Shown: positions 24,386 through 62,061 of the stretch, one piece after another | How the letters are laid out: the number at the start of each line of letters is the position of its first letter | How positions within the stretch are numbered: the stretch's first letter is position 1 | NCBI RefSeq assembly: GCF_027579695.1 | Contig: NC_083582.1 | Coordinates: 3,517,378-3,581,377, forward strand | From: Neoarius graeffei | Taxonomy: Eukaryota > Chordata > Actinopteri > Siluriformes > Ariidae | DNA length: 64,000 nucleotides | Reading direction: 5' to 3' | Notes under the pieces: generated by a model | Told to the model about the DNA's origin: nothing | The model's database searches: none | The model's input: the letters and a program-made list of their open reading frames with translations, nothing else | Program-made: the position numbers and the translations under genes

Positions 24386-25833
24386 CTACAGTGGTGCTTG
24401 AAAGTTTGTGAACCCTTTAGAATTTTCTATATTTCTGCATAAATATGACCTAAAACATCATCAGATTTTCACACAAGTCCTAAAAGTAGATAAAGAGAAC
24501 CCAGTTAAACAAATGAGACAAAACTATTATACTTGGTCATTTATTTATTGAGGAAAATGATCCAATAGTACATATCTGTGAGTGGCAAAAGTATGTGAAC
24601 CTTTGCTTTCAGTATCTGGTGTGACCCCCTTGTGCAGCAATAACTGCAACTAAACGTTTGCGGTAACTGTTGATCAGTCCTGCACACCGGCTTGGAGGAA
24701 TTTTAGCCCGTTCCTCCGTACAGAACAGCTTCAACTCTGGGATGTTGGTGGGTTTCCTCACATGAACTGCTCGCTTCAGGTCCTTCCACAACATTTCCAT
24801 TGGATTAAGGTCAGGACTTTGACTTGGCCATTCCAAAACATTCACTTTATTCTTCTTTAACCATTCTTTGGTAGAACGACTTGTGTGCTTAGGGTCGTTG
24901 TCTTGCTGCATGACCCACCTTCTCTTGACATTAGGTTCATGGACAGATGTCCTGACATTTTCCTTTAGAATTTGCTGGTATAATTCAGAATTCGTTGGTC
25001 CATCAATGATGGCAAGCCGTCCTGGCCCAGATGCAGCAAAACAGGCCCAAACCATGATACTACCACCACCATGTTTCACAGATGGGATAAGGTTCTTATG
25101 CTGGAATGCAGTGTTTTCCTTTCTCCAAACATAACACTTCTCATTTAAACCAAAAAGTTCTATTTTGGTCTCATCCATCTACAAAACATTTTTCCAGTAG
25201 CCTTCTGGCTTGTCCACATGATCTTCAGCAAACTGCAGACGAGCAGCAATGTTCTTTTTGGAGAGCAGTGGCTTTCTCCTTGCGACCCTGCCATGCACAC
25301 CATTGTTGTTCAGTGTTCTCCTGATGGTGGACTCATGAACATGAATATTAGCCAATGTGAGAGAGGCCTTCAGTTGCTTAGAAGTTACCCTGGGGTCCTT
25401 TGTGACCTCGCTGACTATTACACGCCTTGCTCTTGGAGTGATCTTAGTTGATCGACCACCCCTGGGGAGGGTAACAATGGTCTTGAATTTCCTCCATTTG
25501 TACACAATCTGTCTGACTGTGGATTGGTGGAGTCCAAACTCTTTAGAGATGGTTTTGTAACCTTTTCCAGCCTGATGAGCATCAACAACGCTTTTTCTGA
25601 GGTCCTCAGAAATCTCCTTTGTTTGTGCCATGATACACTTCCACAAACGTGTTGTGAAGCTCAGACTTTGATAGATCCCTGTTCTTTAAATAAAACAGGG
25701 TGCCCACTCACACCTGATTGTCATCCCATTGATTGAAAACACCTGACTCTAATTTCACCTTCAAATTAACTGCTAATCCTAGAGGTTCACATACTTTTGC
25801 CACTCACAGTTATGTAATATTGGATCATTTTCC
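24386..25833 (-). mobile_element. Tc1-like transposon, right TIR cut off at the duplication junction
   Basis: The left inverted repeat (CAGTGGTGCTTGAAAGTTTG) is complete, including TGTGAGTGGCAAAAGTATGTG. At the right only the inner part remains (CACATACTTTTGCCACTCAC to GGATCATTTTCC). The sequence then changes at about 25,830 to that of the inverted-duplication arm. The expected outer right repeat is missing. Confidence 0.88.
24609..25634 (-). pseudogene. Tc1 transposase with one internal stop
   Basis: The minus-strand frame starts at the ATG of MAQTKEISEDLRKSVVDAHQ (25,632 region) with helix-turn-helix segments GYKTISKEFGLHQSTVRQIV and KITPRARR. It reaches GYWKNVL then TAG at 25,179-25,181, and continues in the same frame with MDETKIELFG to GGHTRY. 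The stop sits where Trp is expected (TGG to TAG). The catalytic Asp residues (MDETK, QQDNDPKH) and Glu (LNPMEMLW, 34 residues on) are intact. Apart from this stop the coding region of about 340 residues looks complete. The element cannot move itself because of the stop and the missing right end. Confidence 0.88.
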
Positions 25834-26910
25834 AAAGCACCAATACCATGACAGGCATAGTATGGTCACCATAAGGATGTTGCGTAATGCCCTTCAAGGT
25901 TGCATTGTATTACAAGGTTGGCATGATGCTTTTTCTTTTAGGCACCAAACTAGTGGCCACATCCTTGTCCTGAGACTTGTTCAAAGCAAGTAACAAGTTT
26001 TATTGTGACATAAATTTTTGGACTCAGAAACAAAAACAGACTCAAAGCACATTGAGTTCCATCCGCTTGCAATGTTTTAGTAATTAGGATGACACACTGT
26101 GTTGTATAGGAGGACCTGCAAAAAAGTAGAGAGTCACCACCACTGGATCAGTGGAAGGGTCAGTCCTGATTGTACGAGCCCCAGCAAGCAAGTCTACTGA
26201 ACAAGAAAACTGAGCAAGGCACCCACAACAACTTGGTACTTTTTCATCTCTCAGCAACATGACATTTGAGGACATCCCTATTGGTCAAGGCTACAAACCT
26301 TGTTTTTTTTTTACCAGCCTGTGTCAAATTACCACAAAGATGTGCCTCATAGCTCCACGGTACCTGGTTCGCCCCTCCCAAAAACATGCTGCAAGATGGA
26401 TTGATGACTGTAAATTTCCCCCAGGCATGAAAGCATGTGTGCATGGTGTCCTGAAATGGACTGGTGTCATGCCCAGTGTTCCTGGGACAGGCTTGGGTGT
26501 CATGTAAAACATGCAGTGATATTACCAGTGTCGGTATGTATAACATTACTAATTATCCTCATAATTTAATTGGCAATGCTGTGAACGCACTGCTTCTTTG
26601 GCATAACTGAGTATCCCAAGTTCCTCGACCCCTCTTTCCCTTCAAAGCATCTGTGTTTATTACCTTGGAGTGTGTCAGCCTATATTATGGGCTTGAAAGT
26701 ACAATGTTCATCAGGGGGATGTTTTGGTGTCCTTCAGACAGCTGTCCAAGTCTGACTTGCCACCTTGAATGCATTTCATGTCCCATTCTCAACGATTGCT
26801 CTGAACAATTTGTGACCTAAATGGCACCATAGTCCGTAATCGAGTATAAAGGCCAGGCAGGAGGTGAGAGATGAGATGGTATGAGCCACTTTGAATTATT
26901 TTACAGAAGT
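25834..26910. other. Outer left arm, no gene recognised
   Basis: Paired with about 61,000-62,058. Open frames (for example 26,244-26,546 on the minus strand) recur in the other arm with substitutions but show no recognised domain; they look repeat-derived. Confidence 0.55.
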
Positions 26911-26924
26911 AAGATATATTTCTG

Positions 26925-27300
26925 GGCGGCACGGTGGTGTAGTGGTTAGCGCTGTCGCCTCACAGCAAGAAGGTCCTGGGTTCGAGCCCCGTGGCCGGCG
27001 AGGGCCTTTCTGTGTGGAGTTTGCATGTTCTCCCCGTGTCCGCGTGGGTTTCCTCCGGGTGCTCCGGTTTCCCCCACAGTCCAAAGACATGCAGGTTAGG
27101 TTAACTGGTGACTCTAAATTGAGCGTAGGTGTGAATGTGAGTGTGAATGGTTGTCTGTGTCTATGTGTCAGCCCTGTGATGACCTGGCGACTTGTCCAGG
27201 GTGTACCCCGCCTTTCGCCCGTAGTCAGCTGGGATAGGATCCAGCTTGCCTGCAACCCTGTAGAAGGATAAAGTGGCTAGAGATAATGAGATGAGATGAG
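26925..27300 (+). mobile_element. tRNA-derived SINE (ATGAG-tail), left arm only
   Basis: Full-length copy with 14-bp target duplication AAGATATATTTCTG at 26911-26924 and 27301-27314. The right arm has the empty site at about 60,972-60,990 (CAGAAATATATCTTACTTCT). Confidence 0.95.
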
Positions 27301-27314
27301 AAGATATATTTCTG

Positions 27315-27580
27315 CAAAACACTTATAGGGATTTGTAATAGACTTCAATTGCACAGGTTACAAGGGTTTTCAGCAGAGTTTAAGTAGGAAAAGATAACAC
27401 AGCCTTACCTGCCTTTAGTGAACTACTGTATTTACCAGTATTTTATGCAGTGAAACAAAAATAGAAATAAGAAAAACAAGAAATGCTAAATGTCTAAAAG
27501 GAAAGTATAAATCATGTAGTGTGTCTTCTACATACATGCTTTAGCATTACTTGGAACAAGCATGTAGATCATGATGTTTT
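27315..27580. other. Left arm, unique-looking AT-rich DNA
   Basis: Paired with about 60,708-60,970. No gene was seen. Confidence 0.55.
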
Positions 27581-27581
27581 G

Positions 27582-27867
27582 ACAGCGTTGAAGTGGTTAG
27601 CACTGTCACCTCACAGCAAGAAGGTTTCAGGTTCAGGCCCTGCAGCTGATCTTTCTGTGTGGAGTTTGCAAGCTGTGTGTGGAATAAGTCAACTGGCTAC
27701 TCTAAATTACCCATGAGTGTGAATGGTTGGTTGTCTCTGTGTTAGCCCTGTCATAGATTGGTGCCCTGCTCAGGGTGCCCCACCTCTTACCTGAAGTTAG
27801 CTGGGATTGGCTCCAGCTTGCCCACAACCCTGCACAGGATAAGCGGTTATGGATAATGGATGGATAT
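27582..27867 (+). mobile_element. Older degenerate SINE (GGAT-tail subfamily), copy 1
   Basis: GTGGTTAGCACTGTCACCTC, a diverged body (GGATTGGCTCCAGCTTGCCC) and the tail GGATAATGGATGGAT. The same copy exists in the right arm at about 60,421-60,707, so it predates the duplication. Confidence 0.8.
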
Positions 27868-27907
27868 TCACAATGAATATAAGGTTTGGTTTTGTTCTGT
27901 TTAATGC

Positions 27908-28220
27908 TGGGCAGCACGGTGGTGCAGTGGTCACCAAGAAGGTTCTGGGTTTGAACCATGCAGCCAGCTGGAGCCTTTCTATGTGGAGTTTGCATATTCT
28001 CCCTGTGACTGCGTGGGTTTCCTCCAGGTGCTCTGGTTCCCTCCTACAGTCCAAAGACATGCAGATGAAGTCGACTGAGTGTGAATGGTTGTTAGTGTCT
28101 GTGTAAGCCATGTGATAGATTGGTGACCTGCCCAGACTGTACCCCACCTCTCACCCGAAGTCAGCCATGTCCAGCTTCCCTGTGACCCTGAAGAATTCAT
28201 ATGATGGATGGATGGATGTT
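27908..28220 (+). mobile_element. Older degenerate SINE (GGAT-tail subfamily), copy 2
   Basis: GGGCAGCACGGTGGTGCAGT at the head, TCCAAAGACATGCAGATGAA in the body, and the tail GATGGATGGATGGATG. It is shared with the right arm, where it is split by the element at 59,231-60,210. Confidence 0.82.
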
Positions 28221-28698
28221 TAGTGCCTTTTGAGAATCCTATTCGTAGGCTGAAGGTGAGAATGTGCTAATTTGTTGATCATTAACAAAAATACTGTAAA
28301 GAAAATCTATAATGCAACTGTGGTCTTGTTTCAGAAGCAATCAGTATTGCATATTTTTGTAAACACCTCCAATGACTTCGCCCATCTTTTACTCATCAAA
28401 AAAACAGTTTTTACTGTTGCTAATTATATTCAGTCCAGTCAATTAACCTGCTTTTCTTATAAGGTCATAGTCATTTCTAACTCAAGAAAAAAAAGTGATT
28501 TACTTTTTTCACAGCAATTCTTTTAATTTTTTCCCCTTCGTATGCTTCCCCATTCGTAGCAATCCAATTAACAATTGCACTTGGAGCATTGGAAGAAGAC
28601 ACTCTTAAGCTTATCATTCAGCATATAGTGTCGTGGCTGATGGGATTACATCCGAGCACTGTATTTAAACTCAGACAAAACCATCCAGAAAGAAGTGA
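28221..28698. other. Left arm; includes direct-repeat block A
   Basis: Paired with about 58,609-59,087. The block 28,575-28,698 (CACTTGGAGCATTGGAAGAA to CCAGAAAGAAGT) is repeated at 31,127-31,250. No gene was recognised. Confidence 0.6.
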
Positions 28699-28969
28699 TT
28701 GCAAATTACAACACGGTACATCCAAATTACCTTGTTAAAATATGCGAAGTATATTGGAATGCAATATGCTGCACTTGCCTCTCTGATCAGTGGAGGGAGC
28801 TGTTGTCATTTCATAAAACACTGTCGAAGGAAACAGCTTGGGGGGAAACCAGAGTCTCGAATCATAAACATTACGTTATGATATATTCGTATAGATTAGG
28901 AATAGTGGATGCAACCCAGCTCTTCAAATTCCATTTAGCATTTGACTTAAGTAATATAGATGTCTTCTG

Positions 28970-29003
<34 letters not shown>

Positions 29004-31126
29004 CACACTTGGCCATTTTTGAGGTGGTTCTCATGGGTGAAAACTGGTAGACACATCAGTCCTGGCCATCACTACTCAGGGATCGAGGTGTGGCCCTGGG
29101 CATGTCGGGGGCACTCCAAAGTGCCTCAACATGTCATTGAGACTTTTGCTTGGTATATAGTTTCACCTATCCGTGTCAAATTTGATACGTGTGTAGGGTG
29201 CTCCAAGATGAACAAAACTGTGGTGTACATTGTATTAGCCATACTCAACAGGAAGTGAATTATTTTTGATTTTGTGCATTTTGACACACATTACATTTTG
29301 ATGTTCTCCTCCTAGGCAGTTTGTTGGAATCATGCCACATTTGGTATACATGATGCCAAGATGCTGCTGATTTTGAATTGCAAAGGGATTTGCGATATCT
29401 TGAAAGATGTTGAAAAGGTGAAACAATAAATTAAGCCATGCAAACAGGAAATGTGTGCCTAAAAACTCATCACTAGTGATGCTCATAACAGATACCCACC
29501 CAGACTTTTGTCGCACATCTCAGATGCATGTGCATTGTATGATGACCACATGTGACGGGTCGCGGAACCAGAGGTGCTCGGGCCCTTCATCGCCGCTTGC
29601 AGCTATATTGGTATTTGTGGCACAAATAGCTAGAGAGACGGAGTAACCCTTTACATAAGAACAGTATTCATAGGGCTACATAACACTAACATAAGCCTGT
29701 TAACTGACATAAAATGGTGGTGTCGTGGTTAGCACTGTCGCCTCACAGCAAGAAGGTTCTGGGTTCGAGCCCAGTGACTGACAGGAGCCTTTCTGTGTGG
29801 AGTTTGCATGTTCTCCCCGTGTCCGCGTGGGTTTCCTCCGGGTGCTCCGGTTTCCCCCACAGTCCAAAGACATGCAGGTTAGGTTAACTGGTGACTCTAA
29901 ATTGAGCGTAGGTGTGAATGTGAGTGTGAATGGTTGTGTGTCTCTGTGTGTTGCCCTGTGATGACCTGGTGACTTGTCCAGGGTGTACCCCGCCTCTTGC
30001 CCAGAGTCAGCTGGGATAGGATCCAGCTTGCCTGCAACCCTGTACAGGATAAGCGGTTACAGATGATGGATGGATTCAGAAAAAGGCTTAAAATCAGCTA
30101 TCATAAAAACGGATTGTCAATTCTGATACTGAAGTGACATACTGTATTTTTTTCTTTTCTCCATAAAATTCTGTTATAACACTTTACAGGATAGTGGTCA
30201 TGTGGCTAATGTACATACTGTCTAAAACCTACATAATCCCATCCTTACCACTAACATAACTTTAAAAAAATTTATATATATATATGCCTATAAAAAAATA
30301 TAAATGCCTATTCCAACAGGCATCAGCTGTCATGATGACATGATCTGAAGTTGACATAATAACACCTGAATTAAATGGCAAATTCATTTTGACTTGACAC
30401 TTTCCATACTGATTTACTTTAGAGCTGACTTTGGCGCTCACTTTTGCTATATTAGATTCGTGTAATGGTGATAAGACAGCACATCAAACTTCAAAATCCA
30501 CCCAATTTATGGTCAAAGAAAATATGCATAACTGTCATAAGTGTCATAAATCTTACAGCACTATAATTCATAGCCAGACAAAATATGCAAAATGGTGCTT
30601 ATAATATATATCTTTGTCATTTGGTAATGATGCCCTGTAAGCATTTTGTAAGCATAAAATATACGGTATATCTACTCATTATAATAACATGTAGCATACT
30701 GCAAAGCCTGTCTAATTATTAAGGATTTGTGAACAATTATAAAGAGCAATATCGGTCATCACGATAATAAACACATCGGTTTATTACTGAAGTATTAAGT
30801 TTCTTAAATCTGACACTTGTTGGAATGAGCCTTTATTAATGTTTATGGAGATTTAAGTCATGAAGGGTTTATGTAGGTGCCATGTAAAACTATTAACACC
30901 ACCCTGAAGTCAAGTTTCATGAGTTAACATAAAACAGATAACATGGTAATTCGGTTTACACTTTATTTGAATTATGAACATTGGGCCTTCATGATACATC
31001 CATAAACACAGCATAAATCTTATATTGTGAAGGATTTATGTCAAATTTGTGAACTGATGTGAAAGGTATAATGTAGTACACCTTTGTTATTAGATGAAGT
31101 CTTGGACTTTGTTTTTTCCAAGTCCA
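28699..31126. other. Left-arm-specific segment of 2.4 kb between two copies of block A
   Basis: It is absent from the right arm, where block A is followed directly by the Penelope-like 3' end and an inserted element. Contents: an ATT tract at 28,972-29,001, a dispersed AACAGGAAGTG-type repeat at about 29,225-29,620, a SINE at 29,714-30,075, AT-rich DNA at 30,100-31,040, and at 31,050-31,117 a copy of the block also found at 32,812-32,882. No gene was seen. Confidence 0.7.
29714..30075 (+). mobile_element. tRNA-derived SINE, GGAT-tail subfamily, well preserved
   Basis: Head GGTGGTGTCGTGGTTAGCAC, B box GGGTTCGAGCCC, body as in the other copies, tail GATGATGGATGGATT. A target duplication was not resolved. 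Confidence 0.88.
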
Positions 31127-31250
31127 ATGCACTTGGAGCATTGGAAGAAGACACGGTTAAGCTTATCATTCAGCATATAGTGTCGTGGCTGATGGGATTA
31201 CATCCGAGCACTGTATTTAAACTCAGACAAAACCATCCAGAAAGAAGTCT

Positions 31251-32811
31251 GTGAAGATTCTCAGTCATCCAGGTCATAGTAAACTGTGGGTGGTAAAAGA
31301 GAGCAGCTGGACTTGCTTGAAGATTCTTGAAGACGTTTCACCTCTCATCCGAAAGGATTCTTCAGTTCTGTCTGACTAATAAGGAGTATCAGGTATTTAT
31401 CCTCTCATGGATGAAAAGCTCATCTAAGGTGTCATTGCGTCATCCTGTTGGTGTGGGTCAACTGGGGGCTGGTTGTGAATGGCCTCGAGAGTCGTTAGGA
31501 TGATCAATGGATTGCCCGTTAGGGTGATCAATGGAATGCTGATTCTCTCTGTCCTCCTGTGAGCCACTGAAAACAGCTGGGTTTTGGTGTGCATTCAGTT
31601 GTCTGGGAAGTGTGCCAAAGACTGCATTGTAGGTGGTGATGTCTTAGACCCCCACCTCTGTTCAGTGATGGCCGTTCCAGGTTGACAAAAATGGCTTCTT
31701 TAACTCCTCGCTCATACCAACGATCCTCTCTGGCTAAAATGCGTATGTTACAATCCTGAAATGAGTGTCCTTTGTTGTTAAGATGAATGTAGACAGCAGA
31801 GTCCTGGCCTGAGGAACCGGCTCTCCTGTGTTGAGCCATGCGCCTGTGAAGCGATTGCTTTGTCTCCCCAATATACGAGTCCGTGCATTCCTCACTGCAC
31901 TGAATGGCATACACTACGTTGTCCTGTTTGTGTCTGGGTATTCTGTCCTTAGGGTGGACCAGTTTCTGCTTCAGGGTGTTACTGGGTCTGAAATGTACGG
32001 GAATGTTGTGTTTGTAGAAGATCCTCCTGAGTTTTTCAGATAGACCAGAAATGTAGGGAATGACAATGTTCTTGCGTATGTTCCTGTTATCCTCCTTGTC
32101 CATTCTGTTCCTTTTTCTGCTCTTGAGGAAAGACCAGTTGGGATACCCGCAGTTCTGAAGTGCTTTCTTGATGTGATTCCGCTCCTTCTCTTTTCCCTCT
32201 ATCGTTGTAGGGATATTCTGAGCCCTGTGTTGCAAGGTCCTAATGACCTCCAATTTGTGTTCCAGTGGGTGGTGAGAGTCAAAGAGTAGGTACTGGTTTG
32301 TGTGTGTGGGTTTCCGGTAGACCTCGATGCTCAGGCTTCTGTCTTGTCTAATGTGTACATCACAATCCAAGAAGGCTAGATTATTCCCACTGATGTCCTC
32401 CCGAGTGAAGTTGATGTTAATATCCACTGCATTGATGTGCTTAGAGAAGGCTTCCACCTCATGGGTTTTGATTTTAACCCAGGTGTCATCCACATATCTG
32501 AACCAGTGGCTGGGAGCAACTCCTGAAAAAGTGGTCAAAGCTTTATGTTCCACTCCCTCCATGTAAAGATTGGCCACGATAGGGGACACCGGTGATCCCA
32601 TGGCGCATCCATGCTTCTGTCTGTAGAAACTTTCATTAAACTGGAAATAAGTGGTAGTCAGGCTGAGGTCAAGCAGGGTGCAAATCTGGTCCGTGGTGAG
32701 GGTCGTTCCATCCAATAAGGTGCTGTCTCGAAGGAGTCATTTTCTAACAGATTCAACTGCTTCTGTGGTGGGAATGTAGATGAACAGAGAAGTGACATCG
32801 TAGGAAACCAT
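31251..32811 (-). mobile_element. Penelope-like retroelement, left arm
   Basis: Antisense. The flank CTGTGAAGATTCTCAGTCAT and GAAGACGTTTCACCTCTCAT mark the 3' terminal region shared by all four Penelope-like copies in the window. The element is 5'-truncated in the RT at about 32,810. It is paired with 56,145-57,158 on the right arm, which has an internal deletion. 68-71 bp direct repeats (block B) occur at 31,050-31,117 and 32,812-32,882. Confidence 0.85.
31528..32715 (-). pseudogene. Penelope-like RT plus GIY-YIG endonuclease, N-terminally truncated
   Basis: 395 residues open. The RT palm contains GCAMGSPVSPIVANLYME and the catalytic WFRYVDDTWVK (YVDD). After it come FLDCDVH and VYRKPTHTNQYL, then a linker, then the GIY-YIG nuclease NVVYAIQCSEECTDSYIGET followed by KQSLHRRMAQHR. 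RT plus C-terminal GIY-YIG is diagnostic of Penelope-like elements. The RT fingers are missing, and an in-frame stop lies just upstream (32,716). The last residues after GGGLRHH are shifted relative to the copy at 47,361-48,404. Confidence 0.88.
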
Positions 32812-32882
32812 TTGTGAACTGATGTGAAAGGTATAATGTAGTACACCTTTGTTATTAGATGAAGTCTTGGACTTTGTTTTTC

Positions 32883-33118
32883 ACCTGGTGCAGTTTATCC
32901 TAATGATGTCGTCTACTCTTTGCCTTTCTCCGTTGGCTTTTAAGTCTGGATTTAGTGTTTGGTGAACAAAAATAAGACAAATACAGGATCCTTGTGCTGG
33001 GTCTTTGTATTTTCTGCCCTCTAGTGCTGATGTGAGGTCTATCATTCTCTACTAAACGCACCAGATGTGAACGACAGCAATGCTTATGAAAGTGGTGTTC
33101 AAAGCTGCCTTGGACACA
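32883..33118. other. Left arm, unique-looking
   Basis: Paired with 55,837-56,088. No gene was seen. Confidence 0.55.
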
Positions 33119-33122
33119 TTAA

Positions 33123-33578
33123 AGGCATCATTGCATCGTTTTTTCATTAATTGTGCGGTGGTCTCTAGTATGAATGAATGCCCTGTGAGCCGGTTTTGGT
33201 GAAAAAAATGCTGTGGTGTTCCTGTTTCAGGCTGTTCTAGTTTGGTGGAGGAGTGGGTGGGGAGAGAACGACAGGATTTCAGCTCTTACTCATTAATATT
33301 CATGACATGTAAACATATCGCTTCTGATTGGCTAACAGCACTGTGACGCTCCCTCCAGTGGGTTATGGGCGAGGCCATGACTACTAATTTTTGAAGTGAC
33401 GTAAGTTCGTAGGGCTTTTTCTGATTCGCTCATTTTTCCGTCTATTTTCTTTCGTAGGCTGATACAGGGAATGGGGGTAGAAGAACATTTTCTCGTGCAG
33501 CATGCATACGCAACTCGGAGTGACCTATGGGATTTCAAAAAGAGCCAGTATTAAACGGTTTGTCGTGGAATGACACCT
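33123..33578. mobile_element. TTAA-flanked MITE (left arm)
   Basis: The ends AGGCATCATTGCATCG and GTCGTGGAATGACACCT are imperfect inverted repeats flanked by TTAA at 33,119-33,122 and 33,579-33,582. A TTAA target indicates piggyBac or Kolobok. No transposase is present. The same element is at 55,377-55,832, so it predates the duplication. Confidence 0.78.
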
Positions 33579-33582
33579 TTAA

Positions 33583-34117
33583 AGTGAATTCACATCTAGC
33601 AGCAAGCCTGGAGTGTTTTATGAAAGCACCTTTTGATATTGCAAGTTTTACAAGGCATCTATATTCTCAAACAATAATTATCAGATAAGTCTTGAATGAT
33701 TTATGCAGGAATTATGTGTGAAACATCTGTGATGGAGGAGGAGGAAAGTAAACAAGAGTTGCCTCAGGAGAAAAGTGGATAACAGGCGGTAGCATAATAA
33801 TAGGAATTTAAAAAAAGTACACAGTAATGTTGTGAATATAGAGAATGTTTTAGTTCCAAGATTTGCAAAGCATTTGATTCAGTAATTAGTATAAATTCTA
33901 AACGACAGTGTACATATTAGTAAAATGTATGGGAAGTGTGTATGGAATAAAGAGTGCATGTCTGGACCAACTGAAAACTCCTGAGAGTTTAAGGTGCTAA
34001 ACTTTAGGCTTAAGGGTTGAAAAAAAAAAGTGAAGGAGTGTTAATGATATTGGTTATTTATGTAGTAGCCTGGGCAAATTTACCTGGGCATAACAAAACA
34101 TAATCTGACCTCCACTT

Positions 34118-34187
<70 letters not shown>

Positions 34188-34269
34188 TAACTAACATGTG
34201 AAAGTTTGTGAACCTTTTACAAAGTTAGTGAGACCAAAATGTTATCATTGGTCATTAATTTATTCAGGG

Positions 34270-34309
<40 letters not shown>

Positions 34310-34442
34310 TAAACCAAAGGATGATAAGAAACCACAATTACTTCTCGTAATGATTTATTATAGAGATCAAAGTTCACACACTGTAATGACTCCAATTCCA
34401 ACCTGCTCTGTCTTAAAAGCGAAAGTGTCCCAAACATGAGAA

Positions 34443-34521
<79 letters not shown>

Positions 34522-34585
34522 CCTTAAGTGCAGTTTTGTGATGGTCATTATTAATTCCTTATAAAATCTGCACATTTATAAAATG

Positions 34586-34617
<32 letters not shown>

Positions 34618-34736
34618 CGTGTGTGTGTGTGTGTGTGCGTCTTGTTGGCGTATCTGTAGCTGTCTTCCTATTGGTGGAATTCACATTTTAATTACACATT
34701 TCTCACACATGCACACGGACACAGCTCATCATGACT
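33583..34736. other. Left arm with four CA/TG microsatellites
   Basis: CA at about 34,121-34,182, TG at 34,271-34,305, CA at 34,444-34,520, TG at 34,584-34,638. Paired with 52,430-55,372. No gene was seen. Confidence 0.65.
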
Positions 34737-34739
34737 GAG

Positions 34740-39673: not shown

Positions 39674-39710
<37 letters not shown>

Positions 39711-50488: not shown

Positions 50489-50496
50489 AATATCCA

Positions 50497-50852
50497 GAAC
50501 ATTCCACAAATCACATGGAATATTTTGATCATCCAAATTTCCTGAAGATTTTATGAAGAAGAAAAAATGTAAGCTCTTAGAAATTCACTTTTCATTATTT
50601 TCAGTAATTGTGTGATTCTGACTGTCAGTGGGACTTCAAATGTACAATCTGTTACCCAAATTATAGCTTTACGGGAGACTGTTAATAAATAAATAAATAA
50701 GTTGTTAGAATGTCCTTCATGTCCTTGTGCTATCAGCAGAAATGATATTTAACAACATTTGTTGTATTTTCTAATTCTACACTAAAACTCTACACCATCA
50801 CTCATTAAGGAGCAAAAACACAGAACCAAAGAACCTGAACAACTCAGATTAA

Positions 50853-50893
<41 letters not shown>

Positions 50894-51085
50894 CTGATCT
50901 GATGTCATGTTGGAACTCAGCGAATGAATGTATTTTTTATGAAACTCTGCAGTTTTCAGCTGAAAATCTCACACAGTGAAATGATTGTTGGGGCGTGAGC
51001 TGCGATCTGTGGGCTTTGAACTCAGAACACATCTGATTTAATGGCACTGTGATCAGAAGCTCTATAGGAGGAAGTTCAAGTCTCA
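50497..51085. other. Right arm, pair of 39,495-40,050
   Basis: CA tract at 50,856-50,890. Lacks the SINE and the 520-bp segment of the left arm. No gene. Confidence 0.65.
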
Positions 51086-52414
51086 CGAGCGTTCTGTCAT
51101 TAATATAAAGATAAATCGTGAACGTTCTGTCATTAATATAAAGATGAATCGTGAATGTTCTGTCATTAATATAAAGATGAATCGTGAGCGTTCTGTAATT
51201 AATATAAAGATGAATCGTGAGCGTTCTGTAATTAATATAAAGATAAATCGTGAGCGTTCTGTAATTAATATAAAGATGAATCGTGAGCGTTCTGTAATTA
51301 ATATAAAGATGAATCGTGAGCGTTCTGTCATTAATATAAAGATGAATCGTGAATGTTCTGTAATTAATATAAAGATGAATCGTGAGCGTTCTGTAATTAA
51401 TATAAAGATGAATCGTGAGCGTTCTGTAATTAATATAAAGATGAATCGTGAGCGTTCTGTAATTAATATAAAGATGAATCGTGAGCGTTCTGTCATTAAT
51501 ATAAAGATGAATCGTGAGCGTTCTGTAATTAATATAAAGATGAATCGTGAGCGTTCTGTAATTAATATAAAGATGAATCGTGAGCGTTCTGTAATTAATA
51601 TAAAGATGAATCGTGAGCGTTCTGTCATTAATATAAAGATGAATCGTGAATGTTCTGTAATTAATATAAAGATGAATCGTGAGCGTTCTGTAATTAATAT
51701 AAAGATGAATCGTGAGCGTTCTGTAATTAATATAAAGATGAATCGTGAGCGTTCTGTCATTAATATAAAGATGAATCGTGAGCGTTCTGTAATTAATATA
51801 AAGGTGAATCGTGAGCGTTCTGTAATTAATATAAAGATGAATCGTGAGCGTTCTGTAATTAATATAAAGATGAATCGTGAGCGTTCTGTCATTAATATAA
51901 AGATGAATCGTGAGCGTTCTGTAATTAATATAAAGGTGAATCTTGAGCGTTCTGTAATTAATATAAAGATGAATCGTGAGCGTTCTGTAATTAATATAAA
52001 GATAAATCGTGAACGTTCTGTAATTAATATAAAGATGAATCGTGAGCGTTCTGTAATTAATATAAAGATGAATCGTGAACGTTCTGTAATTAATATAAAG
52101 ATGAATCGTGAGCGTTCTGTAATTAATATAAAGATAAATCGTGAACGTTCTGTAATTAATATAAAGATGAATCGTGAGCGTTCTGTAATTAATATAAAGA
52201 TAAATCGTGAACGTTCTGTAATTAATATAAAGATGAATCGTGAGCGTTCTGTAATTAATATAAAGATGAATCGTGAACGTTCTGTAATTAATATAAAGAT
52301 GAATCGTGAGCGTTCTGTAATTAATATAAAGATGAATCGTGAACGTTCTGTAATTAATATAAAGATGAATCGTGAACGTTCTGTAATTAATATAAAGATG
52401 AATCGTGAACGTTC
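51086..52414 (+). repeat. 33-bp satellite, right arm (about 40 units)
   Basis: Reverse complement of the left-arm unit: AACGTTCTGTAATTAATATA plus AAGATGAATCGTG. It is uninterrupted, with register kept throughout, giving open frames of about 270-495 codons that are not genes. GAGCG dominates over GAACG, unlike the mixed left arm. Confidence 0.97.
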
Positions 52415-52515
52415 CCTCAGTCATGATGAGCTGTGTCCGTGTGCACGTGTGAGAAATGTGTGATTAAAATGTGAATTCCACCAATAGGAGGACAGCTACA
52501 GATATGCCAACAAGA

Positions 52516-52567
<52 letters not shown>

Positions 52568-52637
52568 GACACACACTTTATAAATGTGCAGATTTTATAA
52601 GGAATTAATAATGACCATCACAAAACTGCACTTAAGG

Positions 52638-52678
<41 letters not shown>

Positions 52679-52814
52679 TTCTCATGTTTGGGACACTTTC
52701 GGTTTTAAGACAGAGCAGGTTGGAATTGGAGTCATTACAGTGTGTGAACTTTGATCTCTATAATAAATCATTACAAGAAGTAATTGTGGTTTCTTATCAT
52801 CCTTTGGTTTATCG

Positions 52815-52872
<58 letters not shown>
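52415..52872. other. Right arm with CA/TG microsatellites
   Basis: CA at 52,516-52,562, TG at 52,640-52,676, CA at 52,818-52,872. Paired with the left arm at 34,306-34,739. Confidence 0.7.
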
Positions 52873-52876
<4 letters not shown>

Positions 52877-53123
52877 GCCGTTGACAGCATTGGCTGGGCC
52901 CGGGACAAAATAATCTGAGCGCCCCCCCCCCCCCCCCACACACACACACGCGCGCACGCACATCGCCACACAGCAACCACCCACACCCAACCCCTCTTTT
53001 CACAGTCTCCATTCACTCCAACCCTTAAATAACAGGTATTCCAAGCCCATTATAACAGTCAACCATTTTATTTCAACATTTCAACATATTTACAGTTTGA
53101 ACATTTCCTTAGTCTGCAACTAT

Positions 53124-53280
53124 TCAGGTGCGAAATGCAATGCGCCGGACTTTTGCTGTGGCAAAGTCGTCAATAAGGTCATTGAAGTCCAGCTTCTTTG
53201 CAAGTTCGCGCTCTGTAGAGAGCATAGCCAGCCCATTGAGCCTCTCCTGTGACATGTTTGAGCGCAGGTAGTTGATAAAC
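53124..53280 (-). pseudogene. hAT C-terminal dimerisation region (ZMYM1-like)
   Basis: Minus strand: FINYLRSNMSQERLNGLAML, STERELAKKLDFND and FATAKVRRIAFRT then stop. This is the hAT dimerisation tail as found in transposon-derived ZMYM1-like proteins. Sequence upstream is not in frame with it. Confidence 0.78.
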
Positions 53281-54164
53281 CAAAATGATTGTTTACGGGA
53301 TGGAACTGGGCCTCAATGAGAACGGAGTTATGGCTTTCCCAAAATCTGAACATAGAAGCATCACCACTAGTGATGTGTACAGTGAGTTTTTCAGTGTATT
53401 TTTTTGTCTTGTTTTTCATAAACGTCCTTTCCGTATTCGATTTAGAATGTTACAAAAAAAATTGACACCCTCCCAACCACGTAACATTAGCCTATCTGAC
53501 CTGGGGGCTGACACGTTTATTACGGATAAACCAAAAGGATTACAACGTTCCCTGGATATAGAACTGGACCGAGAAGATTTCAAAATCTTAACGTGTAAGC
53601 AACAACAATAAAACAGAGGTTGTTTTATTCATTTAGGGCTTATTAGGCTACTTTCATTAATTGCGCTTTTCATACAGGCCTATCATTTTTCACTTGAGCA
53701 AGGGAATTGTTTGAAGAGTATCCAGTCTAAGCGAAAGTTTAATGTTTTGCAACAGACTAACCTCAAAACACCCCATTTATAGCCCATTCGTTACATTAAA
53801 CTCTATCTAGCTGGCAATTTCACATGCCGTCGTATCTACACGGGATGATTTCCAACAAAATAAGGTTTAATTAACAAGAGGCAGCGTTCCACGGGCTTTC
53901 AGCTAACCGGAGTCCAGCTCAGCGCAGCTCAGCAAGCGTGCCTAAAACATTTGGATATGATTGCGGGCCAATGTGCTATTCTTTGCTTCATTGAGATATA
54001 TGCAACACAGTGTTATTAAACCGATATGTTTATGAAATAATTCAATGCCCTGTGCATTTCAGTGTTCACTCAGTGTACCCTGCTATCCCCTACTTTATAA
54101 TTATGAATGGCGCGTCGCGCGTGCTGGGGTTACATTACGGGGCTGGAAAAAAGTTATCTGTGTC

Positions 54165-54304
54165 TTACCTGGCTCAGCTGCCCCACTGCCTTCACCACCT
54201 GCTGCATCATCTGAATCTTTTCTAAAATATCTATGCAGTGAGCCCCTGAGGCTCTTGGCTTCTTCATCTCTTTTTCTCTTTTCTTTGCTCCTGACTTGTG
54301 CATG
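54165..54304 (-). pseudogene. hAT transposase first exon, frameshifted
   Basis: Minus strand from ATG at about 54,302: MHKSGAKK, then after a one-base shift KRDEEAKSLRGSLHRYFRKD and SDDAAGGEGSGAAEP, ending at a donor-like CCAG/GTAAGA. It matches the usual basic-then-acidic start of ZMYM1-like hAT transposases. Confidence 0.65.
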
Positions 54305-54626
54305 TTGGCAAACGGGCTCGCACGCTTATTGTCGAAGCGTTATGATGGAATAGTGCCATGTTATTTGGCGCCTTAATCAAAGACCAAACCATTTCTGCAT
54401 TAGGGGTGGTAGGTGGGTTCTTGAATCTATTTTCGAAGACAATAAAGGCAAAAGAACCAGAAATCATTCATTGAATGCAAATATAGCACATTTTTCTCCC
54501 CCAAATCAACACATTTTGAAATGAAACAGAATGATTAATGATATCTTCATGAGGGACCAGTTCTGGGCCCCCCCTCATGCCTGGGCCTGGGACAAAATAC
54601 CCGGTTGTCCCCCCCTGTCGACGGCC

Positions 54627-54629
<3 letters not shown>

Positions 54630-54694
<65 letters not shown>

Positions 54695-54776
54695 CCCTGA
54701 ATAAATTAATGACCAATGATAACATTTTGGTCTCACTAACTTTGTAAAAGGTTCACAAACTTTCACATGTTAGTTA

Positions 54777-54836
<60 letters not shown>

Positions 54837-55372
54837 AAGTGGAGGTCAGATTATGTTTTGTTAAGCCCAGGTAAATTTGCCCAGGTTACTACATAAATAA
54901 CCAATATCATTAACACTCCTTCACTTTTTTTTCAACCCTTAAGCCTAAAGTTTAGCACCTTAAACTCTCAGGAGTTTTCAGTTGGTCCAGACATGCACTC
55001 TTTATTCCATACACACTTCCCACATCCATTTTACTAATATGTACACTGTCGTTTAGAATTCATCCTAATTACTGAATCAAATGCTTTGCAAATCTTGGAA
55101 CTAAAACATTCTCTATATTCACAACATTACTGTGTACTTTTTTAAAAATTCCTATTATTATGCTACCGCCTGTTATCCACTTTTCTCCTGAGGCAACTCT
55201 TGTTTACTTTCCTCCTCCTCCATCACAGATGTTTCACACATAATTCCTGCATAAATCATTCAAGACTTATCTGATAATTATTGTTTGAGAATATAGATGC
55301 CTTGTAAAACTTGCAATATCAAAAGGTGCTTTCATAAAACACTCCAGGCTTGCTGCTAGATGTGAATTCACT
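54630..55372. other. Right arm, pair of 33,583-34,271
   Basis: CA at 54,630-54,692 and TG at 54,784-54,834. No gene. Confidence 0.65.
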
Positions 55373-55376
55373 TTAA

Positions 55377-55832
55377 AGGTGTCATTCCACGACAAACCGT
55401 TTAATACTGGCTCTTTTTGAAATCCCATAGGTCACTCTGAGTTGCGTATGCATGCTGCACGAGAAAATGTTCTTCTACCCCCATTCCCTGTATCAGCCTA
55501 CGAAAGAAAATAGACGGAAAAATGAGTGAATCAGAAAAAGCCCTACGAACTTACGTCACTTCAAAAATTAGTAGTCATGGCCTCGCCCATAACCCACTGG
55601 AGGGAGCGTCACAGTGCTGTTAGCCAATCAGAAACGATATGTTTACATGTCATGAATATTAATGAGTAAGAGCTGAAATCCTGTCATTCTCTCCCCACCC
55701 ACTCCTCCACCAAACTAGAACAGCCTGAAACAGGAACACCACAGCATTTTTTTCACCAAAACCGGCTCACAGGGCATTCATTCATACTAGAGACCACCGC
55801 ACAATTAATGAAAAAATGATGCAATGATGCCT
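55377..55832. mobile_element. TTAA-flanked MITE (right arm copy)
   Basis: Reverse complement of 33,123-33,578, with TTAA at 55,373-55,376 and 55,833-55,836. Confidence 0.78.
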
Positions 55833-56144
55833 TTAATATGTCCAAGGCAGCTTTGAACACCACTTTCATAAGCATTGCTGTCGTTCACATCTGGTGCGTT
55901 TAGTAGAGAATGATAGACCTCACATCAGCACTAGAGGGCAGAAGATACAAAGACCCAGCACAAGGATCCTGTATTTGTCTTATTTTTGTTCACCAAACAC
56001 TAAATCCAGACTTAAAAGCCAACGGAGAAAGGCAAAGAGTAGACGACATCATTAGGATAAACTGCACCGGGTGAAAAACAAAGTCCAAGACTTCATCTAA
56101 TAACAAAGGTGTACTACATTATACCTTTCACGTCAGTTCACAAA

Positions 56145-57158
56145 TGGTTTCCTACGACGTCACTTCTCTGTTCACCTGCATTACCACCACAGAACCAGTT
56201 GAATCTGTTAGAAAATGACTCCTTCGAGACAGCACCTTATTGGATGGAACGACCCTCACCACGGACCAGATTTGCACCCTGCTTGACCTCAGCCTGACTA
56301 CCACTTATTTCCAGTTTAATGAAAGTTTCTACAGACAGAAGCATGGATGCGCCATGGGATCACCGGTGTCCCCTATTGTGGCCAATCTTTACATGGAGGG
56401 AGTGGAACATAAAGCTTTGACCACTTTTTCAGGAGTTGCTCCCAGCCACTGGTTCAGATATGTGGATGACACCTGGGTTAAAATCAAAACCCATGAGGTG
56501 GAAGCCTTCTCTAAGCACATCACTGCAGTGGATATCAACATCAACTTCACTTGGGAGGATGTCAGTGGGAATAATCTAGCCTTCTTGGATTGTGATGTAC
56601 ACAATCCAAGCCAGTTCCTCAGGCCAGGACTCTGCTGTCTACATTCATCTTAACAACAAAGGACACTCATTTCAGGATTGTAACATACGCATTTTAGCCA
56701 GAGAGGATTGTTGGTATGAGCGAGGAGTTAAAGAAGCCATTTTTGTCAACCTGGAACGGCCATCACTGAACAGAGGTGGGGGTCTAAGACATCACCACCT
56801 ACAATGCAGTCTTTGGCACACTTCCCAGACAACTGAATGCACACCAAAACCCAGCTGTTTTCAGTGGCTCACAGGAGGACAGAGAGAATCAGCATTCCAT
56901 TGATCACCCTAACGGGCAATCCATTGATCATCCTAACGACTCTCGAGGCCATTCACAACCAGCCCCCAGGTGACCCACACCAACAGGATGACTCAACGAC
57001 ACCTTAGATGAGCTTTTCATCCATGAGAGGATAAATACCTGATACTCCCTACTAGTCAGACAGAACTGAAGAAGCCTTTCGGATGAGAGGTGAAACGTCT
57101 TCAAGAATGTCCAGCTGCTCTCTTTTACCACCCACAGTTTACTATGACCTGGATGACT
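56145..57158 (+). mobile_element. Penelope-like element, right arm, internally deleted
   Basis: RT part 56,147-56,610 (YDVTSLFTCITTTE, stop at 56,216, then MGSPVSPIVANLYMEG and RYVDDTW) jumps after FLDCDVH directly to SSGQDSAVYIHLNNKGHSFQ (56,610), losing about 0.6 kb including the core of the GIY-YIG domain that the left-arm copy keeps. The 3' terminal region follows to 57,158. Confidence 0.85.
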
Positions 57159-58594
57159 GCTACATCCACACGACAACGGCAACGAGATGTTATTTAAAAA
57201 TATATCGCGTCCAAATGGGCAACAATCAGTAAAATATCAGGTCCATATGGCAACGCAACGCTTGCTGAAAACAATGCAATACACATGCCACACCTCTAGG
57301 GGCGCTGTAAGACGGTCCCTTCTGAGACACGAGAACAATAGAAGAAGTAAGGACGCATGCGCATAAACTATTATGCGCGAGACTTCATATTAGCCACAAA
57401 GGTAGGAAAATCTGTTCGTAAAATTACATTATAATGACCAAATACAATGAAAAGTATTTTTCCAGTCTCACCTGTGAAAGGTAATCCCATGTGATCTCAT
57501 TTGGACGGCAAACCTGTTGGTACAGTTAAACGCAGCTAATCTTTATTCTCCGCTTTGACCTTTCCAATATGGCGGCGAGGATGACCTATGATTCTACGCG
57601 GAAGGCGGCGTCTTTAATGGTCCGGAATAAATTGAATACTACACGTTGATGGAATAATTTGTTGTTTCTCACCTGTGAAAGGTAATCCTATGTGATCTCG
57701 TTTGGACGGTAAACCTGTTGGTACAGTTAAACGCAGCTAATCTTTATTCTCCGCTTTGACCTATCCAATATGGCGGCGAGGATGACGCATGATTCTACGC
57801 GGAAGGCGGCGTCTTTAATGGTCCTGAATAAATTGAATGCTCTGTTGATGGATTAATTTGCTCCTCTACGCCCTTTTTGAGGAATGTATTGTCGGACTTA
57901 AACCATAATCTGAAGAGGTGAGATCGCTCCTTTTTTTCGCTATTTTTGCTGGCGGGATTGACTCTGCCCTACGGGCTATTCTCTCTCTCTCTCTCTCTCT
58001 CTCACTTTGCACCATTACACAATAAATATTCACAGTGAAAATATTTTGTAAGCGCGTTTCATGAACCAAGTTATAGGATTTGTTGACAACTCGCATCGCA
58101 ATGAGAAGATCATTGGCACTACTGGTGTTAAGAATCAGACCATTTCATAAATGAATATTTTGCTGTAGAGCTACAGTGTTTGTACAATTGCATGTTTTTG
58201 CTTCACTATTACTGTCACTATTCTGCTTCTTGCATTACTACTGTGAACTAACACTGAACATAATAATAATAATAATAATATCCAAGCTCGTGTTTCACTC
58301 TCACTAGTGCTCTGTAAGGCTTTTTCCTGGTGATATCCTGGTGATATTCGTTACACTTCTACCTGGCATGAAGCACTCACAGTCATGTGGTTGTGACGTC
58401 ATCGTAAACAAATCCGTTCTACTCATCCAGACGACTTCACAATGGCAACGTTGCCAGATCTTTCCACTCTGGAACCCGTTCTCAAAAAGATTGTGTTTTG
58501 GGCACCCAAAACGCCGGTGCCGTGTGGACGCCAGGCCTAAACGATAAGCAATTGTATCGGAGTCACCTGAATCCATTGCCGTGTGGACAGGGCA
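57159..58594. mobile_element. Harbinger-like non-autonomous element with internal tandem block
   Basis: The ends CTACATCCACACGACAACGG and CCATTGCCGTGTGGACAGGG are inverted-repeat-like and match the element at 59,231-60,210 in the opposite orientation. It splits the Penelope-derived GGATGACTGAGAATCTTCAC. 57,460-57,610 and 57,665-57,830 are tandem copies (GGTACAGTTAAACGCAGC, AATATGGCGGCGAGGATGAC) related to 23,085-23,320. CT tract at 57,978-58,002 and AAT tract at 58,260-58,281. No transposase. Confidence 0.7.
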
Positions 58595-59230
58595 TGAGAA
58601 TCTTCACAGACTTCTTTCTGGATGGTTTTGTCTGAGTTTAAATACAGTGCTCAGATGTAATCCCATCAGCCACGACACTATATGCTGAATGATAAGCTTA
58701 AGAGTGTCTTCTTCCAATGCTCCAAGTGCAATTGTTAATTGGATTGCTACGAATGGGGAAGCATGCGAAGGGGAAAAAATTAAAAGAATTGCTGTGAAAA
58801 AAGTAAATCACTTTTTTTTCTTGAGTTAGAAACGACTATGACCTTATAAGAAGAGCAGGTTAATTGACTGGACTGAATATAATTAGCAACAGTAAAAACT
58901 GTTTTTTTGATGAGTAAAAGATGGGCGAAGTCATTGGAGGTGTTTACAAAAATATGCAATATTGATTGCTTCTGAAACAAGACCACAGTTGCATTATAGA
59001 TTTTCTTTACAGTATTTTTGTTAATGATCAACAAATTAGCACATTCTCACCTTCAGCCTACGAATAGGATTCTCAAAAGGCACTAAACATCCATTCATCC
59101 ATCATATAAATTCTTCAGGGTCACAGGGAAGCTGGACATGGCTGACTTCAGGTGAGAGGTGGGGTACAGTCTGGGCAGGTCACCAATCTATCACATGGCT
59201 TACACAGACACTAACAACCATTCACACTCA
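58595..59230. other. Right arm, pair of 28,080-28,698
   Basis: Includes block A (58,609-58,737) and the tail of the second old SINE (59,088-59,230, minus). No gene. Confidence 0.65.
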
Positions 59231-60210
59231 GGCCCTGTCCACACGGCAACGGATTCAGATGAATCTGATAAAATTGTTTAGCGTTTCGGTCTGGCGTCCA
59301 CACAGCACCAGCGTTTTGGGTGCCCCAAAACTAAATCTTTTGAGAACGGGTTCCAGAGTGGAAAGATCTGGCAACGGTGCCGTTGTGAAGTCGTCTGGAT
59401 GAGTAGAACGGATTTGTTTACGATGACGTCACAACCACATGACTGTGAGTGCTTCACGCCGGGTAGAAGTGTAACGAACTCGATGTGAGTTGTCAACAAA
59501 TAAAAAGGAAAAAAAAGGAGCGATCTCACCTCTTCAGATGTTGGTCACGTGACTGCAAGATCTCTATACATTCCTCAAAAAGGGCGTAGAAGAACAAAGT
59601 AATCCATCAACGTGTAGCATTCAATTTATTCCGGACCATTAAAGAATTCTGGAGAATATCAGAATGTTGGCGGCTTCCATCTATCCCCATTCATTCCTCT
59701 CTCTCTCCATCTACCCCCATTCATTCCTCTTTCCGCGTCTCCATTCAAAAAACGAGCAGAAGGTGTGTGCGTATGACAGTGACAGGATGAGTGACACGGA
59801 AGAAGCTAGGCTCATGCTCGCCCTGAATTTCTCTTAAAGTGAAGGCAGAAGAACGTTCAGCGCCTGGCCAGGCTTTCTATGTATTAATTTACATAGACGT
59901 TTTAATATGAAATATAAATAAGTGTCTTAGACAATAGATACTATTTTACGCTACTGATTAATAATCAAAACTTTATGTGGCTGATGCTACAGAAGAAGGG
60001 GTTTATGCGCATGCGTAAAACCTTCTTCTATTGTTCTGGTGTCTCCGACGGGACCATCTTACGGCGCACCTAGAGGTGTGGCATGTGTATTTCATCGTTT
60101 TCAGCAAGCGTTGCGTTGCCATATGTACCTGAAATTTTACTGATCCGTTGCCCATGTGGACGCGATATTTAAAAAAAAAATCTTGTTGCCATTGTCGTGT
60201 GGATGTAGCC
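59231..60210. mobile_element. Harbinger-like non-autonomous element inside an old SINE
   Basis: The ends GGCCCTGTCCACACGGCAAC and TTGTCGTGTGGATGTAGCC are inverted-repeat-like, flanked by TCA (59,228-59,230 and 60,211-60,213). The left arm has the empty site in its SINE copy (28,070-28,085). No transposase was seen. Confidence 0.78.
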
Positions 60211-60707
60211 TCAGTCGACTTCATCTGCATGTCTTTGGACTGTAGGAGGGAACCAGAGCACCTGGAGGAAACCCACGCAGTCACAGGGAGAACATGCAAA
60301 CTCCAAATAGAAAGGCTCCAGCTGGCTGCATGGTTCAAACCCAGAGCCTTCTTGGTGACCACTGCACCACTGTGCTGCCCAGCATTAAACAGAACAAAAC
60401 CAAACCTTATATTCATTGAGAATATCCATCCATTATCCATAACCGCTTATCCTGTGCAGGGTTGTGGGCAAGCTGGAGCCAATCCCAGCTAACTTCAGGT
60501 AAGAGGTGGGGCACCCTGAGCAGGGCACCAATCTATGACAGGGCTAACACAGAGACAACCAACCATTCACACTCATGGGTAATTTAGAGTAGCCAGTTGA
60601 CTTATTCCACACACAGCTTGCAAACTCCACACAGAAAGATCAGCTGCAGGGCCTGAACCTGAAACCTTCTTGCTGTGAGGTGACAGTGCTAACCACTTCA
60701 CCGCTGT
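60211..60707 (-). mobile_element. Old GGAT-tail SINEs, right-arm copies
   Basis: Reverse complements of 27,582-27,867 (60,421-60,707) and of the head of 27,908-28,220 (60,211-60,378). The rest of the second lies at 59,088-59,230, beyond the inserted element. Confidence 0.8.
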
Positions 60708-62061
60708 CAAAACATCATGATCTACATGCTTGTTCCAAGTAATGCTAAAGCATATATGTAGAAGACACACTACATGATTTATACTTTCCTTTTAGACATT
60801 TAGCATTTCTTATTTTTCTTATTTCTATTTTTGTTTCACTGCATAAAATACTGGTAAATACAGTAGTTCACTAAAGGCAGGTAAGGCTGTGTTATCTTTT
60901 CCTACTTAAACTCTGCTGAAACCCCTTGTAACCTGTGCAATTGAAGTCTATTACAAATCCCTATAAGTGTTTTGCAGAAATATATCTTACTTCTGTAAAA
61001 TAATTCACAGTGGCTCATACTGTCTCATCTCTCACCTCCTGCCTGACCTTTATACTCGATTACGGACTATGGTGCCATTTAGGTCACAAATTGTTCAGAG
61101 CAATCGTTGAGAATGGGACATGAAACGCATTCAAGGTGGCAAGTCAGACTGGTGTCTGAAGGACACCAAAACATCCCCCAGATGAACACAGTGTACTTTC
61201 AAGCCCATAATATAGGCTGACACACTCCAAGATAATAAACACAGATGCTTTGAAGGGAAAGAGGGGTTGAGGAACTTGGGATACTCAGTTATGCCAAAGA
61301 AGCAGTGCGTTCACAGCATTGCCAATTAAATTATGAGGATAATTAGTAATGTTATGCATACAGACACTGGTAATATCACTACATGTTTTACATGACACCC
61401 AAGCCTGTCCCAGGAACACTGGGCATGACACCAGTCCATTTCAGGACACCATGCACACATGCTTTCATGCCTGGGGGAAATTTACAGTCATCAATCCATC
61501 TTGCAGCATGTTTTTGGGAGGGGTCGAACCAGGTACCGTGGAGCTATGAGGCACATCTTTGTAGTAATTTGACACAGACTGGTAAATGAAACAAGGTTTA
61601 TAGCCTTGACCAATAGGGATGTCCTCAAATATCATGTTGCTGAGAGATGAAAAAGTACCAAGTTGTTGTGGGTGCCTTGCTCAGTTTTCTTGTTCAGTAG
61701 ACTTGCTTGCTGGGGCTCGTACAATCAGGACTGACCCTTCCACTGATCCAGTGGTGGTGACTCTCTACTTTTTTGCAGGTCCTCCTATACAACACAGTGT
61801 GTCATCCTAATTACTAAAACATTGCGAGCGGATGGAACTCAATGTGCTTTGAGTCTGTTTTTGTTTCTGAGTCCAAAAGTTTGTCACAATAAAACTTGTT
61901 ACTTGCTTTGAACAAGTCTCAGGACAAGGATGTGGCCACTAGTTTGGTGCCTAAAAGAAAAAGCATCATGCCAACCTTGTAATGCAATGCAACCTTGAAG
62001 GGCATTACGCAACATCCTTATGGTGACCATACTATGCCTGTCATGGTATTGGTGCTTTGGA
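60708..62061. other. Outer right arm, no gene recognised
   Basis: Paired with 25,833-27,580 minus the SINE. Short frames at 61,349-61,810 mirror those of the left arm and show no known domain. Confidence 0.6.

Follow-up and report, generated by a model that had tools for sequence, protein, structure and literature searches.

Layout of the inverted duplication on C14

The window analysed here is a stretch of 64,000 nt from Neoarius graeffei (C14:3,517,378-3,581,377, contig NC_083582.1), in which two inverted arms enclose a spacer carrying the first exon of a tyrosine kinase gene; relatives of different parts of this arrangement lie on C2, in a kinase gene at 0.31 Mb and at 93.1 Mb. The palindrome is a true, aged and large inverted duplication, and was examined within 154 kb of sequence, reaching from 40 kb to the left to 50 kb to the right of the window. 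Its main parts are as follows (window coordinates, unless marked C2):

25830..41142, minus strand: left arm, which the anti-diagonal and the polarity given by the C2 outgroups mark as a derived inverted copy of the right arm
41143..45599: single-copy spacer of about 4.5 kb, with a Penelope remnant, a truncated transposon and kinase exon 1
44837..45199, plus strand: apparently orphan first exon encoding the SH3 domain of an FRK/PTK6-like tyrosine kinase, its protein 81% identical to that at C2:308654-309034
45600..62062, plus strand: right arm, the native copy, continuous with the right flank and spanned at 62062 by the C2:93.1 Mb match

Self-BLAST placed the arms in one collinear anti-diagonal chain, running from 25830/62062 inward to a telomere-like minisatellite at 41,142 and 45,600, with block identities of 96.8%, 98.8%, 98.7%, 96.8%, 97.9%, 90.5% (through the CA tracts) and 97.0%. 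This bore out the large inverted duplication proposed here by the first-pass annotation, together with its arm coordinates and its spacer of about 4.5 kb. The annotation had also anticipated one continuous anti-diagonal in place of scattered repeat matches; the diagonal is indeed single, but it is broken, with near-collinear matches accounting for 10,041 bases of the left arm's 15,313 and 7,288 of the right arm's 16,461, and what is unmatched reflects sequence inserted into one arm, sequence deleted from the other arm and a difference in satellite length. Five shuffled left arms, permuted by non-overlapping base pairs, gave first-listed matches to the right arm of 14-18 bp (E 0.74-2.6). The inverted copy is separated from its source by the single-copy spacer, the kinase exon being present once on C14. 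Extrusion of the palindrome as a hairpin is unlikely because of the 4.5-kb spacer and the many interruptions of the arms.

A SINE, a Penelope element, a TTAA element (with TTAA at both ends), CA/TG tracts, a 33-bp satellite and the telomere-like tract are mirrored between the arms, as the earlier reading had described. The tandem repeats, and the element that splits one of them, are located as follows:

40627..41142, plus strand: telomere-like minisatellite, left arm
45600..45737, minus strand: telomere-like minisatellite, right arm, spacer-side piece
48577..49019, minus strand: telomere-like minisatellite, right arm, outer piece, split off by a Penelope insertion
45738..48577: Penelope-like element of 2.8 kb (named by eye) within the right-arm minisatellite, not seen in the corresponding minisatellite of the kinase gene on C2
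35522..38928: left-arm array of the 33-bp satellite, with about 103 copies
51087..52414: right-arm array of the 33-bp satellite, with about 40 copies
54630..54834: CA/TG tract, right arm (left-arm equivalent 34120-34305), the meeting point of two source segments

The 2.8-kb Penelope copy is extra to the mirrored set, and its 348-aa frame had no Pfam match. Where they match, it is about 90% alike to the Penelope remnant at 41146-41707, and each adjoins or interrupts the inner minisatellite; the two are taken as separate insertions. The Penelope insertion shared by the arms has a repeated 72-bp piece at its flanks and includes 120 bp copied from sequence 2.5 kb upstream (features at 31045-31247 and 32739-32811); a template jump at insertion may be the cause. 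No Rfam match was obtained at gathering scores.

Over 14 alignable non-satellite blocks the arms differ by substitution at 102 of 5,897 sites (1.73%) and by 20 small indels. Together with private insertions and unequal satellite copy numbers, this agrees with the earlier view of the palindrome as an aged structure.

Related loci on C2 and the native arm

Homologous loci were sought in the genome with the outer and the inner arm as queries, and further copies could be missed because only the best 40 candidates were scored in each search. Among the best 40 of 1,082 candidates for the outer arm, three matches cover the arm itself, namely the two arms of the window and C2:93.14 Mb, and the remaining 37 match the Tc1-like flank only; a transposon within the query can crowd out genuine copies, and one such search missed the copy at C2:93.1 Mb. 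For the unique sequence of the inner arm, the only long matches among the best 40 of 118 candidates were the left arm, the right arm and the kinase gene at C2:0.31 Mb. An origin-dependent (ODIRA-like) inverted triplication with palindromic junctions, of which one copy was later lost, is therefore an unlikely source of the palindrome: a single inverted copy is seen, each of these searches gave the two arms and one C2 copy among the best 40 candidates, and no extra arm copy of at least 400 bp is present in the 154 kb examined.

The locus at C2:0.31 Mb is an FRK/PTK6-like gene with SH3, SH2 and tyrosine-kinase exons, all on the same strand, read from a 30,000-base sequence that is N from base 26,348 on, with the 3′ end of the gene outside the readable part. 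The name was chosen because the best solved relative of the SH3 exon is fyn-related kinase and that of one C2 kinase exon is PTK6, followed by Src among others. The order on C2 is SH3 exon, telomere-like minisatellite, inner-arm sequence, 33-bp satellite and then the SH2 and kinase exons, so that intron 1 of this gene holds both tandem repeats found in the arms. A telomeric meaning of the TTAGGG-like tract is not supported, since the same minisatellite is intronic on C2, and telomere fusion as the origin of the palindrome was rejected for this reason.

Homology to intron 1 of the C2 kinase gene stops on C14 near 54.8 kb, and that to C2:93.1 Mb begins there, at the CA tract, continuing with gaps through the right arm, past 62,062 and on to at least 95.8 kb, about 32 kb beyond the end of the window. 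Judged by these alignments, the right side of this locus on the chromosome-scale contig C14 is a mosaic of two segments, one with exon 1 and part of intron 1 of the kinase gene and the other shared with C2:93.1 Mb, joined within the CA/TG tract. Both C2 matches extend over at least 1 kb at 90% identity or more, beyond dispersed repeats, as is usual for segmental duplications. The C14/C2 segmental duplication takes up at least 41 kb of C14, with gaps, including about 77-96 kb in window coordinates, a stretch matched at C2:93.116-93.132 Mb; the duplication extends over long open frames beyond the right edge of the window.

The mosaic pieces are about 4-8% diverged from their C2 relatives in most blocks. 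The right inner arm differs from the C2 kinase locus at 52 of 969 sites (5.4%), and the left arm from C2:93.1 Mb at 146 of 3,173 sites (4.6%) over five aligned blocks, with 120 changes common to both arms. Since the two arms carry the same CA/TG junction, the mosaic predates the palindrome, and since the arms differ from each other by 1.73% only, the palindrome is younger than both source splits. Private substitutions relative to C2:93.1 Mb numbered 23 in the left and 22 in the right arm (five blocks), and relative to the kinase locus 15 and 14 (four inner blocks, a fifth block consisting mostly of dinucleotide repeat, with 0 left and 1 right, being omitted).

These alignments also indicate which arm came first. 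The C2:93.1 Mb sequence matches 60210-62624 as a single unbroken block across 62062, and because C2 homology thus crosses the outer edge of the right arm, and left-arm homology ends at 25830, the right arm is marked as native and the left arm as the younger, backward copy.

The first-pass annotation had drawn attention to a palindrome around a kinase first exon. A link to a working kinase is not supported: the SH3 exon looks like an orphan duplicate, the gene having a fuller copy at C2:0.31 Mb that includes SH2 and kinase exons, and intron 1 homology ends on C14 at about 54.8 kb. A motif scan of the window with 40 kb to its left and 50 kb to its right found no further kinase exons, though the scan could miss exons because several of its motifs failed in the positive case: at the C2 locus two of four kinase motifs matched their exons, and the SH2 motifs failed despite the SH2 exons there. 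The frame of the orphan exon is open, with an ambiguous dN/dS of 0.75 (NG86) or 0.40 (YN00). If the promoter of exon 1 transcribed through the right arm and both arms were transcribed, a long hairpin transcript carrying the sequence of kinase intron 1 could serve as a source of small RNAs against the C2 FRK/PTK6-like gene, a scenario that we regard as extremely improbable.

Faster divergence of the spacer was considered and rejected. The whole spacer differs from the C2 gene at 155 of 1,403 sites, against 52 of 969 for the inner arm (p 9e-7; without CpG p 0.0005), but without three of the ten windows (44.4-44.9 kb) the count is 75 of 1,018 (p 0.08; without CpG p 0.35). The dropped windows hold short tandem repeats in which the alignment was judged unreliable, their exclusion having been chosen after seeing the data.

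Decay of the arms

Clear private insertions number three in the left and four in the right arm:

26924..27300: SINE, left arm only, with a 14-bp target duplication; empty site in the right arm and at C2:93.1 Mb
40064..40443: SINE, left arm only, with target duplication ATTTGTGGAATG; empty site in the right arm and at the kinase locus
34837..35521: insertion within the 33-bp satellite, confined to the left arm
59231..60209: 979-bp element confined to the right arm; the left arm and C2:93.1 Mb have the empty site
57160..58598: 1.44-kb element in the Penelope end, right arm only; empty site in the left arm
52875..54629: 1.8-kb element confined to the right arm, its inverted ends reading CAGGGCCGT
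49189..50487: 1.3-kb element confined to the right arm, with target duplication GGATATTT; the left arm and the kinase locus have the empty site

Three further segments are kept in the left arm and absent from the right:

28697..31247: 2.55 kb that the right arm lost between 120-bp direct repeats; C2:93.1 Mb has the greater part of it (to about 31109)
31823..32338: 516 bp within the shared Penelope element, which the left arm and another Penelope copy retain and the right arm has deleted
38967..39506: 540 bp, present in the left arm and at the kinase locus, deleted from the right arm

That the 2.55-kb and 540-bp segments were insertions into the left arm was rejected, since most of the first and all of the second occur on C2 and are thus ancestral; it was the right arm that lost them. 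The 120-bp repeat that survives in the right arm starts like the first repeat and ends like the second, as read by eye. Seven to nine arm-specific insertions may look many for 1.7% divergence, a weak lead that is given no weight here.

The same private changes bear on whether the palindrome is an assembly artefact, in which an alternative haplotype or a fold-back read was placed inverted. Heterozygous haplotypes can be falsely duplicated, and the structure is known from the assembly only. However, the arms are 1.73% apart and carry private insertions, for several of which target duplications and empty sites can be seen, each junction coincides with a truncated transposon, in one case with microhomology, and the window has no N bases, all of which makes an artefact very unlikely. 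A palindrome resulting from a missed adapter would have near-identical arms. The reference assembly comprises 2.34 Gbp in 38 scaffolds with 28 chromosomes, and was built from HiFi, Bionano and Hi-C data (PMC11579386).

Gene conversion between the arms, which had also been raised in the first-pass annotation, found little support: no conversion tracts were seen in the mismatch pattern, the longest identical run was 291 bp against 294 bp in simulations, over-dispersion of mismatches in 200-bp windows was not significant (p 0.07), and private changes were similar in number in the two arms. Divergence does vary between blocks (chi-square p 0.0099), being higher near the spacer (27/887) than in the outer arm (75/5,010, p 0.003, the groups having been formed after seeing the data), and conversion of limited extent may have affected the outer arm. 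This unevenness would suit a functional palindrome whose arms are homogenised by conversion, in the manner of mammalian sex chromosomes, a proposal that is nevertheless highly improbable given the lack of long identical tracts, the substitution identity of about 98%, which with the large indels falls below the >99% of sex-chromosome-type palindromes, and the fact that no host gene was noticed in the arms when open frames were read by eye. The palindrome has no demonstrated function.

Junctions, origin and known systems

Three elements lie at the junctions of the left arm:

24384..25833, minus strand: Tc1-like transposon with DDE_3 domain, cut off at the outer left junction 170 bp short of its end
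41146..41707: short Penelope-like remnant at the inner junction; by eye, ATATA may be its target duplication
41701..44114: transposon that breaks off at the inner left junction, with a nested element at 42665-43258

At the outer junction the broken Tc1-like element has a 4-bp microhomology, TTCC, with the end of the right arm, as read by eye. Both joined ends show loss of DNA in these alignments: the Tc1-like end is missing, as is the 5′ part of the second transposon, two other copies of which share more than 0.9 kb of additional upstream sequence that was not found in the 154 kb examined. With the left flank (22400-24384) as query, the best 40 of 6,627 candidates contained, besides the window itself, matches to repeat elements.

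The outer ends also speak to the idea that the whole is a giant mobile element, or a virus-like unit, bounded by long terminal inverted repeats, which could account for symmetric arms flanking a coding spacer. We give it next to no probability: such an element would have sharp ends with a target duplication at both outer edges, whereas C2 homology crosses the right outer edge, which is thus no boundary, no target duplication is visible by eye at the outer ends, and the spacer contains a gene fragment.

The palindrome was probably made by fold-back or template-switch repair of a double-strand break beside the native arm, with subsequent decay of both arms. The segmental-duplication mosaic on C14, uniting kinase exon 1 and part of intron 1 with the segment shared with C2:93.1 Mb, formed first. 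We infer that an interstitial double-strand break then left one end in the Tc1-like element and the other in the transposon just upstream of exon 1, and that the gap was repaired by backward copying of the neighbouring sequence from 62,062 to 45,600. Either the right-hand end folded back, with the exon 1 segment as the loop, or microhomology primed template switching from the Tc1 end; the sequence allows both routes equally. The outcome would be a palindrome around a single-copy spacer, at the cost of the DNA that had lain between the two broken transposons. Thereafter the two arms diverged, each largely on its own, through substitutions, transposon insertions, deletions and changes in satellite length. 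The single-copy spacer fits a fold-back loop, its 4.5 kb falling inside the 0.77-70 kb range (median 3.4 kb) given for 21 sequenced human fold-back junctions, 13 of which had 2-8 bp of inverted homology (PMC3907307).

Several observations weigh against this origin. Chance alone would give microhomology of at least 4 bp in about 1.6% of random joins at equal base frequencies, so that TTCC is suggestive only, and the upstream sequence of more than 0.9 kb common to two copies of the inner transposon may belong to a larger duplication of those loci and not to the transposon. At the inner junction, seven bases (ATAAGAA) and the Penelope remnant separate the minisatellite from the truncated transposon; they obscure the junction and any inverted homology of the kind required by fold-back. 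Both junctions were read from the assembled sequence. Finally, in the innermost 169-bp block (40458-40626, 49020-49188) the left arm differs from the C2 kinase locus at 2 of 137 sites and from the right arm at 8 of 169, with five of seven polarised changes on the right arm, a pattern that one simple copying event with even rates would not predict.

Elsewhere in the window, a 30-bp minisatellite at 9560-12417 has about 95 copies with 96% matches, and is partly open in a plus frame as a repeated peptide. Open frames at 8459-8800 and on C14 about 8-11 kb left of the window resemble, by eye, dual-specificity phosphatase exons; gene names in the flanks are tentative, the open-frame lists having been read by eye only.

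To our knowledge, descriptions of germline fold-back duplications come mostly from patients and tumours, in which the events are recent. The rearrangement on C14 is ordinary in kind and unusually well resolved: two junctions, two truncated transposons and two outgroup copies allow the event to be polarised and dated relative to the source duplications, and its later decay can be followed, which makes it a useful natural example and not a new mechanism. The locus resembles mosaic segmental duplications (duplicons) in that pieces of two loci meet at a short repeat tract, with about 4-8% divergence from their relatives in most blocks, and differs by the later local inverted duplication. Among the papers listed in literature searches for fish or catfish palindromes, none was recognised as describing this locus. 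With mammalian X and Y palindromes it has in common large inverted arms around a spacer; arm identity is >99% for X and >99.9% for Y palindromes (PMC8981503 and PMC3723533), whereas on C14 it is about 98%, no conversion tracts were seen, no host gene was noticed in the arms and the locus is not known to lie on a sex chromosome. The human fold-back inverted duplications of PMC3907307 are large and lie beside terminal deletions, translocations or rings, whereas the palindrome described here is interstitial, of about 16 kb, in an assembled genome and with an obscured inner junction; the two share the inverted copy, a single-copy spacer of a few kb, short junction homology and loss of adjacent DNA.

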